Source: Spirochaetales bacterium (GTDB taxonomy: Bacteria > Spirochaetota > Spirochaetia > DAHUYW01). Taken from it: a stretch of DNA of 40,189 nucleotides. The DNA lies in contig DAHVAK010000276.1 in NCBI GenBank assembly GCA_027314665.1, positions 1 to 40,189 on the forward strand, given 5' to 3'. The translations under genes were made by a program, and so were the position numbers. The stretch's first letter is position 1, and the number at the start of each line of letters is the position of its first letter. Shown here piece by piece: positions 34,755 through 37,586 of this stretch. The notes under the pieces were generated by a model. The model was not told where the DNA came from. It ran no database searches and saw nothing but the letters and a program-made list of their open reading frames with translations.

Positions 34755-36248
34755 CTAGCTCTTTTGCTCGTCAGTATCCTCTTCTTCGCCATCGTCTTCA
34801 AGCTGGAAGCTTAATCCAACCCCGCAGTTTGGACAAGAAGTCATGTCGATCGTGATCGGCGTGCCGCACTCCGGACACTCGTAGGTCTCGGGTTCGGGTT
34901 CCGCCTTCTCCGGCGCGGCCGCGGCGCTCTCTTCCGCCGGAGGCTCTTCTTCGATGATGTCGACGTTCTCCGCAATGATGGCCTGAATGGTCTGCACGTC
35001 CTGAGGGGTGATCCCCTCGAGCTTCGTCAGCTGCTCCCCGTCCAGGGAGATGAGCGACTCGATGAGCTCGATGCCGTTCTGCTTGAGAAGCTCGACCAAC
35101 CGCTCCGAAATGCCGGGAAGCTCGGAGATCTTGGTGATCTCCTCTTCCTCTTCCGTCAAGTCGCTGAACAGCGCGGACACCGCCCGCTTCGATTCCGCGG
35201 AGATGTCCATCTCGGCGAACTGTGCTGCGGTCTTCACGTCGATGTTCCAATCGACGAGACGATTCGCGAGGCGGACGTTGAGACCCTGTTTTCCAATCGC
35301 TAGCGAGAGCTGGTTCTCGCCGACTACCGCGAGTGCCTGTCGCTTCGCCTCGTCAAGGATCACCACGGTCTCCACCTCGGCCGGAGAGAGGGCGTTCTTG
35401 ATGAACTCCCGCGGATCGCTGTCGAACTTGAGGATGTCGATCTTCTCGCCCTCGAGCTCGCGCACGATCGCCTGGATGCGGACGCCCTTCATCCCCACGC
35501 AGGCTCCCACCGGATCGACGTCCTCCCGATTCGAGAGGACCGCGATCTTGGTGCGATACCCGGGCTCCCGGACGATCTTGAAGATCTCCACCGTTCGATC
35601 GTAGATCTCCGGCACTTCCAGCTCGAAGATCCGTTTGACGAAATCGGTGTGGGTCCGCGACAGGACGATCTGCAGCCCCGAGGGACTCTTGTTGACCTCG
35701 TAGATGAGGGCCTTGATGCGGTCGTTGGGGCGGTAGATCTCGCGCGGCGACTGGAAGCGCTTGGGCAGAATGCCCTCGGTCTTCCCCAGATCGACGAAGA
35801 TGTTGCCGTTGCGCTCGCGCTGGTAGTAGCCGATGATCATCTCACCGACCTTGTCCTTGAACTCCGAGTAGAGGGTGTCCTTCTGAATCTCGCGCAGGGT
35901 CTGTTTCGCCTTCTGCTTCGCGCTCTGGACGGCGACCCGATCGAACTCCTGGGGGTTGATCTCGATCAGGAGCTCGTCGCCGATTTCGCAGTCCTCGTTG
36001 AGGGCAAGCGCCTCCTCGAGAGCGATCTCGGTGACCGGATCATCGACCTCTTCGACGATGCTCTTTCGCGCGTAGATGGCGACATCCGCGCCGTCATCGC
36101 TGAACTTGACGACCGCGTTGTCGGCCATCCCGAACTTCCGCTTGTAGGCGGCGATCAAAAAGTCCTCTATTGTCTTGATGACAAGCTCTTCGGAGATACC
36201 CTTTTCCTGCACGAGTCCCCGAATTGCATCTGCAAGTCCAGAAGCCAT
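34755..36248 (-). CDS. nusA: Transcription termination/antitermination factor NusA with C-terminal zinc-ribbon-like tail
   Basis: S1 domain (GEMIIGYYQRERNGNIFVDLGKTEGILPKRFQ), KH regions (DPVGACVGMKGVRIQAIVRELEGEKIDIL), HhH-like repeats, and tail CPECGTPITIDMTSCPNC. Start placed at MASGLAD. Confidence 0.96.
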   Translation of the reverse strand: MASGLADAIRGLVQEKGISEELVIKTIEDFLIAAYKRKFGMADNAVVKFSDDGADVAIYARKSIVEEVDDPVTEIALEEALALNEDCEIGDELLIEINPQEFDRVAVQSAKQKAKQTLREIQKDTLYSEFKDKVGEMIIGYYQRERNGNIFVDLGKTEGILPKRFQSPREIYRPNDRIKALIYEVNKSPSGLQIVLSRTHTDFVKRIFELEVPEIYDRTVEIFKIVREPGYRTKIAVLSNREDVDPVGACVGMKGVRIQAIVRELEGEKIDILKFDSDPREFIKNALSPAEVETVVILDEAKRQALAVVGENQLSLAIGKQGLNVRLANRLVDWNIDVKTAAQFAEMDISAESKRAVSALFSDLTEEEEEITKISELPGISERLVELLKQNGIELIESLISLDGEQLTKLEGITPQDVQTIQAIIAENVDIIEEEPPAEESAAAAPEKAEPEPETYECPECGTPITIDMTSCPNCGVGLSFQLEDDGEEEDTDEQKS

Positions 36249-36249
36249 G

Positions 36250-36711
36250 TTAACCTCCCACCTCCTCGGAATAGTCGAGTTGGGCTTTCGCGATGTCCTC
36301 GAATTCGTACTCGAACCGGCCGCCTGAGTTCTGGAGCTCAAGCGAATGGTCGGTCGCGGCGTGGATCGTCCCGGCTATCCACTCTCCGCTCGATTTCATC
36401 AGTATCTTCACCCCTCTGCCGCGGAAGACCTCAAACTCGTCGGTCGACCTGATCGTGCGACTGAGCCCCGGAGAGGAAACCTCCAAATGCACATCGCGCC
36501 GATTCTCTGAAACCTCGATCCTGGGAAGCACGGCTCGATAGACCCTCGTGCAGTCCTCGAGATTCACTCCTTCAGGCCGGTAGATGACGAGGCTGACGCG
36601 AAGGGCCTGTCGAGTAGCGCCCGAGCGAAGCTCGACAATGGAGAACCCAAGCTTATCGACGAGGGGCTCCACGACGGGCTTCAGTCTGTCTGCGAGGCCT
36701 CCGCGGTCCAC
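36250..36711 (-). CDS. rimP: Ribosome maturation factor RimP
   Basis: VEVSSPGLSRTI-like region (HLEVSSPGLSRTIRSTDEFEVFRGRGVKI), upstream of nusA. GTG start with SD TGGAGGGCGGTG. Confidence 0.93.
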   Translation of the reverse strand: MDRGGLADRLKPVVEPLVDKLGFSIVELRSGATRQALRVSLVIYRPEGVNLEDCTRVYRAVLPRIEVSENRRDVHLEVSSPGLSRTIRSTDEFEVFRGRGVKILMKSSGEWIAGTIHAATDHSLELQNSGGRFEYEFEDIAKAQLDYSEEVGG

Positions 36712-36723
36712 CGCCCTCCACCT

Positions 36724-36751
36724 ACAAAAAAAGAGTCGGTTGCCGACTCTT
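36724..36751 (-). terminator. Intrinsic-terminator-like hairpin plus U-tract in the rimP leader / downstream of comF
   Basis: Minus strand AAGAGTCGG-CAA-CCGACTCTT, a perfect 9-bp stem with 3-nt loop, running into TTTTTTTG. Confidence 0.85.
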
Positions 36752-36782
36752 CTGCAAAAGCCTTCCTTATGATGCTAAGGAA

Positions 36783-36811
36783 AGAATAACAACTGCGACC
36801 GACAATGTCAA
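36783..36811 (-). promoter_or_regulatory. Strong candidate sigma70-type promoter of the rimP-nusA-infB operon
   Basis: Minus strand TTGACA, exactly 17-bp spacer, TATTCT, in the comF-rimP intergenic region. Confidence 0.8.
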
Positions 36812-36842: not shown

Positions 36843-37586
36843 TCAAGCGATTGCGATCGTGAGGACGAAGACGGTCGCTACACCGGCTTCGCGAAGGAGG
36901 CGAGCGCATTCCGAGGCCGTGGCGCCGGTCGTCAGGATGTCGTCGAGCAGCACCACCGCCCTCGGCGGGCGAAGGAAGGCTCCCTCCGACAGGGGGCCGC
37001 CTCTGCCCTCGCGGAGCCGTATCCTGCCCCGCAGGTTTCCCATGCGTCCTTCGAAGTCGAGGCGCTTCTGCTGCGGGCCGTCGTCGCGGGCAAGCAGGGG
37101 CAGCGGCGGGATGTGGTAGGTCCGCGCAAGATGGGAGAGGATGCACTCGACATGGTCCCACCCCCTTCGTCGCCTCCCCGACGGGCGGAAAGGGACCGGC
37201 ACGAGGGGAAGCCCGGGATATCGGGTCTGGTACCCGCGAGCCAGCCAGAAGGCGAAGTATCGCGCGAGCCGCCGTTGATTGCGGAATTTGTACTGGTAGA
37301 CGAGCTCTCTCACCTCGTCCTCGTAGGCAAAGGGCGACCAGTTCGCTTCGAAGGAGAGCTCCCGTTCCCGACACCTCAGGCACAGCCCCTCCTCAGAGGT
37401 GAGGGGTTGGCTGCAGCGCGCGCAGCGCCGCCCCTCGATGGGGCGAAGGCCGCAGTGGCAGGAGCGGCACACCGGGATCGCAGCGGCATCCGGGATCTCC
37501 TCCGCACATTCGAACAGGACAGGAGCCCCGCAGAGAAGACAGGCCTGGGGGAAGAGGCACGCGAAGGGGTTGTTTCTTTGCCGCAT
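36843..37586 (-). CDS. ComF family protein (zinc finger plus phosphoribosyltransferase)
   Basis: N-terminal Cys pairs (CLLCG, CRSC, CARC, CLRC) and PRPP-binding motif VVLLDDILTTGATASECARLL. Start placed at MRQRNN. Confidence 0.92.
   Translation of the reverse strand: MRQRNNPFACLFPQACLLCGAPVLFECAEEIPDAAAIPVCRSCHCGLRPIEGRRCARCSQPLTSEEGLCLRCRERELSFEANWSPFAYEDEVRELVYQYKFRNQRRLARYFAFWLARGYQTRYPGLPLVPVPFRPSGRRRRGWDHVECILSHLARTYHIPPLPLLARDDGPQQKRLDFEGRMGNLRGRIRLREGRGGPLSEGAFLRPPRAVVLLDDILTTGATASECARLLREAGVATVFVLTIAIA

Follow-up and report, generated by a model that had tools for sequence, protein, structure and literature searches.

The rimP-leader has been reported as the most ubiquitous predicted attenuator, displaying a GGGc..gCCC stem and no antiterminator, with NusA as its likely effector (Naville and Gautheret 2010, PMC2965389). 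In B. subtilis, NusA is autoregulated via NusA-stimulated termination in its own leader (PMC12288461), while RNA-seq in S. agalactiae shows the rimP leader terminating 31 nt downstream of its start, ahead of rimP-nusA-infB (PMC4448216). Similarly, in E. coli the t1/t2 terminators are located upstream of rimP and NusA exerts feedback on its own operon (PMC6511841). The main text of Naville and Gautheret (PMC2965389) makes no mention of spirochaetes, and the main text presenting published Borrelia 3'-end data (PMC10319736) makes none of the nusA/rimP leader. Here a spirochaete comF-rimP intergenic region is described which, judged from its sequence and that of its relatives, probably contains a promoter-proximal attenuator of rimP-nusA-infB, most likely autoregulated by NusA.

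Organisation of the comF-rimP intergenic region

The window, that is the whole stretch of 40,189 nucleotides analysed, carries an operon of the order rimP-nusA-infB-rbfA-truB-rpsO-pnp, as assigned with Pfam. The gap separating rimP from the upstream comF-like gene spans 131 nt. The features of the region, in the direction of transcription, are the following.

37676 to 36843, minus strand: comF-like gene upstream of rimP and co-directional with it, stop at 36843 (translation; Pfam DZR_2 weakly, below cut-off)
36811 to 36806, minus strand: -35 hexamer TTGACA (read from sequence; promoter scan)
36791 to 36783, minus strand: extended -10, TGT-TATTCT, TGTTATTCT, with the hexamer TATTCT at 36788-36783 (sequence; promoter scan)
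36776, minus strand: predicted transcription start, an A 7 nt past the -10 hexamer (from conservation)
36776 to 36726, minus strand: predicted 51-nt leader RNA after termination (length calculated from the promoter and T-run coordinates)
36751 to 36731, minus strand: intrinsic-terminator-like hairpin AAGAGTCGG-CAA-CCGACTCTT with core GAGUCG/CGACUC; arm AAGAGTCGG 36751-36743, loop CAA 36742-36740, arm CCGACTCTT 36739-36731 (sequence, own scan, covariation in relatives)
36732 to 36726, minus strand: T-run (T7), then GTAGG (sequence)
36724 to 36714, minus strand: Shine-Dalgarno-like stretch TAGGTGGAGGG (sequence)
36711 to 36250, minus strand: rimP, GTG start 36711-36709 (Pfam RimP_N, E 3.2e-13)
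36341 to 34755, minus strand: nusA, longest ORF, true start probably internal (Pfam NusA_N, KH_5)
34700 to 32154, minus strand: infB (IF2) (Pfam IF-2, IF2_N)

The succession of promoter, hairpin and U-tract that the initial annotation had proposed upstream of rimP was confirmed by direct reading. The near-consensus promoter TTGACA-N17-TATTCT is indeed located upstream of the hairpin, with a spacer of 17 nt, 10/12 consensus matches and a TG one base ahead of the -10, which defines an extended -10; by itself, this promoter is at chance level (1 found vs 0.9 expected in 10 kb with a generic promoter scan). The U-tract, initially estimated to end about 15 nt before the GTG and to leave no room for another promoter, ends 14 nt before it. 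Thus, transcripts entering from upstream must cross the hairpin too. The isolated hairpin has a folding energy of -11.9 kcal/mol and the leader fold a z of -1.83. The hairpin was missed by a simple terminator scan, presumably on account of a G.U pair that carries the stem into the T-run, and was detected by our own scan. In contrast with these elements, a second leader hairpin initially proposed, CCTTA-GCATCA-TAAGG, is not sustained, as nearly all of its 5' arm (36780-36776) precedes the predicted start A36776. The window on its own warrants only mild interest, and it is the comparison with relatives that raises the element above chance.

Within the operon, the translated ORF 34755-36341 (minus strand) displays, behind the helix-hairpin-helix domain, a zinc-ribbon at the C-terminus of NusA (Pfam PF13248; residues ~485-509), and a CxxC..CxxC pair is found close to the NusA C-terminus in 53 of the 68 related loci checked.

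Conservation of promoter, spacing and hairpin across the class

Of 60 related genomes of the class, 57 yielded a RimP locus, and the upstream DNA of those loci was compared. When the best candidate at each locus is taken, a TTGA-type promoter and a T-tract hairpin precede rimP, in the same order as in the window, in 56/57 class loci, and throughout these 56 the distance from the -10 to the hairpin end is 44-58 nt. Because this search takes the best candidate per locus, it was rerun with fixed strict promoter-spacing-hairpin criteria and with 100 dinucleotide shuffles per locus as control; 40/57 loci pass, against 0.0 expected in shuffles, and elsewhere in the same loci the strict criteria give 0 matches in 352,612 bases. 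The sequence TTGAC is present at the matching place in 51 of 56 class relatives, the TG of the extended -10 is enriched among relatives as well, and past the -10 no position is better conserved than the A at the predicted start (0.70 bits). The predicted terminated RNA has a median length of 52 nt (range 45-59, sd 3.2, 56 leaders). That promoter, spacing and hairpin are all conserved throughout the class strongly supports the candidate attenuator of rimP-nusA-infB proposed in the initial annotation. In several families a weak motif, ACAGYTTAA or similar, is observed near the predicted start (leaders L010, L012, L018, L029, L033, L042 and L049).

Covariation and sequence conservation of the hairpin stem

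The stem alignment comprised 40 distinct class hairpins, with ~10 class loci left out; these, including those of Borrelia-sized genomes, carry other stems or gave no clean alignment. Among the 40 aligned hairpins the core GAGUCG/CGACUC is highly conserved. Paired cells amount to 96.9%, compared with 89.2% after shuffling, and 0/500 shuffles reach the observed values. Double (compensatory) changes are found in 7/8 stem pairs, and shifting the partner arm abolishes the covariation signal. Alignment of rimP leaders among related spirochaetes, the comparison initially suggested for the hairpin, thus reveals it to be both conserved and covarying. Together, pairing and covariation indicate that the hairpin structure is preserved; its sequence in addition remains close to a single consensus. 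At alignment columns 8/19 of the core, every one of the 40 class sequences has a C-G pair; Bacillota leaders and several other spirochaete classes have G-C there instead, with the GAGU around it retained.

Intrinsic terminators normally require just a stable stem and a U-tract. The element described here is a predicted terminator with near-constant stem letters across a class, nearly confined to the operon of the termination factor NusA. It is conceivable, if doubtful, that the stem is read as sequence in a lineage-specific code, its identity co-evolving with the reading protein, probably NusA. The near-constant stem letters make the long-standing idea of recognition of the leader stem, by NusA or a partner, testable through single base-pair swaps between lineages.

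With regard to the interrupted distal U-tract or weak stem base that characterise NusA-dependent terminators, the stem is followed by T6-purine-T in 28/47 leaders, for which only four control terminators were usable for comparison; the control set comprised 11 terminators in 400 kb of five class genomes (L226-L245), four of them with a clean T4 start. After the T-run (window 36725-36721) the T6-purine-T is often followed by (A/G)GG, and this conservation (T 85%, purine 83%) extends to leaders in which rimP begins farther downstream. Strong intrinsic terminators directly behind genes are rare in the 400 kb of five class genomes (11 found with our own criteria), which agrees with reports of few canonical terminators in Borrelia. 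A-runs flank the leader terminator in L015 (G053), L013 (G011), L035 (G020) and L019 (G059), where the hairpin model matches both strands, and these are possible bidirectional terminators.

Specificity for rimP leaders and spread beyond the class

The hairpin pattern GAGTCG-N2..8-CGRCTCY-T5, searched in 60 whole genomes, occurs at 28 sites in 26/60 genomes. One site, G028:C64, is an ordinary 3' terminator; all the others belong to rimP leaders, including that of G051, whose gene the RimP profile had missed. With the hairpin covariance model the sole match in the window's genome (E <= 0.1) is the rimP leader site, and the top-scoring matches across relatives are rimP leaders, many of which had served to build the model. 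The stem signature is thus specific to the rimP leader within the genome by pattern, covariance model and promoter+hairpin scan.

A RimP protein-based scan of genome contigs gave no matches, and the promoter+hairpin DNA pattern was used in its place over ~85,000 species genomes, returning at least 117 loci. Among the 117 matches listed, 113 bear spirochaete titles, and RimP follows within 900 nt in 111; the remaining six consist of four loci that are cut off and two, from Desulfitobacterium and Ruminiclostridium bins, that lack RimP downstream. Treponema denticola, T. lecithinolyticum, Alkalispirochaeta alkalica and Rectinema are included among the matches listed. In other classes of the phylum the corresponding position is occupied by GAGUCG or GAGAGUGG stems, and a few lack a detectable hairpin; the arrangement at rimP is thus conserved over the class and over much of the phylum. 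In Bacillota, to which the Ruminiclostridium bin belongs, 19/30 rimP leaders have a stem that contains GUGGG, mostly as GAGUGGG/CCCACUC. The Spirochaetia hairpin model gave no match in Bacillota rimP leaders, so the link between Spirochaetia and Bacillota rests on reading the stems and not on a model match. Neither at the gathering score nor at E <= 5 did Rfam searches of the window and of the relatives tried yield a relevant match.

Proposed mechanism and alternative explanations

The comF-rimP gap is proposed to consist of a promoter and a promoter-proximal attenuator. RNA polymerase would start at about A36776 and transcribe a ~51-nt leader ending in an intrinsic terminator (GAGUCG/CGACUC stem, U7) before rimP. 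Some polymerases would stop at the hairpin and the remainder would read on into rimP-nusA-infB-rbfA-truB-rpsO-pnp, such that the cell can probably abort its own operon message at this point. No class-wide antiterminator signal was detected in the 56 leaders (mean z -0.41), and in the search for a leader peptide the ATG count is at chance (22 vs 20.5 expected), a start with an SD-like stretch being present in 5/56 leaders. This leaves as the remaining option a terminator modulated, if at all, by a protein. The leading candidate effector, by precedent, is NusA; there is a reasonable likelihood that this product of the second operon gene raises termination at the hairpin, a feedback that would steady its own level.

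The hairpin may alternatively attenuate with a constitutive set-point, a fixed fraction of polymerases reading through with no tuning factor. Such an arrangement is consistent with the lack of a detected antiterminator, leader peptide or conserved ligand-like domain, and the long T-run of the window means that termination might be strong and unregulated. It is nevertheless judged unlikely, as the stem sequence is conserved far past the needs of stability and NusA acts on its own operon both in B. subtilis (PMC12288461) and in E. coli (PMC6511841). The conserved stem sequence could just as well be recognised by a different protein, and RimP, IF2, S15 or NusG, rather than NusA, might tune termination through the GAGUCG stem. 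The core pair invariant in the 40 class sequences and the GAGUGG core of other lineages look like recognition, and RimP and S15 are encoded within the same operon; this alternative is held at a low probability since no precedent was found for these proteins at rimP leaders, whereas NusA has one.

A signal-responsive switch, in which an upstream segment pairs with the 5' arm as antiterminator, is improbable. An antiterminator with z < -1.5 is present in 10/56 leaders, including that of the sister species (L021, -4.07), but it is not class-wide, neither its position nor its sequence is conserved, and the 5' part of the leader is itself poorly conserved. In the window, the CTTTT-GCAG-AAGAG initially suggested as a weak antiterminator loses its support, given that 13% of shuffled leaders score as well and that its -6.7 cannot outcompete the -11.9 kcal/mol of the hairpin.

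The null alternative raised in the initial annotation, whereby the hairpin merely ends mutS-comF transcripts and rimP starts elsewhere, suits the co-directional upstream gene of the window and of most relatives but is contradicted by the promoter located upstream of the hairpin at fixed spacing, by the 14 nt left before the GTG, and by loci in which hairpin and promoter spacing persist beside a divergent, clearly coding neighbour, namely a decarboxylase (L006), a sigma-54 activator (L057), a transposase (L189) and a ProC-like gene (L133); termination of mutS-comF is thus not the hairpin's reason for being there, and this alternative is very improbable. Equally slight is the chance of a free-standing ~50-nt trans-acting small RNA to which rimP is merely adjacent, for while promoter, terminator and constant length would suit one, the 5' half is poorly conserved whereas the hairpin and its linkage to rimP are conserved.

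The conserved leader hairpin gives spirochaete researchers a specific candidate regulatory site in an essential operon, absent from Rfam, to seek in existing RNA-end data.

Comparison with known rimP and nusA leaders

Rfam family RF01770 (rimP, Gammaproteobacteria) is likewise a leader that regulates rimP-nusA-infB in cis and has a terminator at its end. In contrast to the spirochaete element, it extends over ~100 nt and carries a tandem pair of terminators; its covariance model at the gathering score gave no match in the window or in the spirochaete loci tried, with E. coli as positive control at 102 bits. The B. subtilis rimP (ylxS)-nusA leader shares a promoter upstream of the leader terminator and the presence of nusA in the operon. 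Bacillota leaders differ in their GAGUGGG/CCCACUC stem and interrupted T-tracts, and the dependence of the spirochaete leader on NusA is proposed by analogy with them. The S. agalactiae leader is shorter, belongs to another phylum and is backed by transcripts, whereas the spirochaete leader is predicted from sequence.

The closest resemblance is to the rimP-leader of Naville and Gautheret, described in Firmicutes and Gammaproteobacteria. Both comprise a short leader with a sequence-conserved terminator stem and a U-tract just ahead of rimP, both have a general form devoid of antiterminator (none class-wide here, mean z -0.41), and in both NusA is the proposed effector. The stems are different, GGGc..gCCC in the rimP-leader and GAGUCG/CGACUC in the spirochaete class, and in the spirochaete element the promoter is positioned at a nearly fixed distance of ~50 nt. 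As all the rimP-leader features tested were found save the stem motif, the element would work like the rimP-leader and is best called a lineage-specific variant. The spirochaete version, which matches no Rfam family, is thus a distinct, lineage-specific form of the known rimP-leader.
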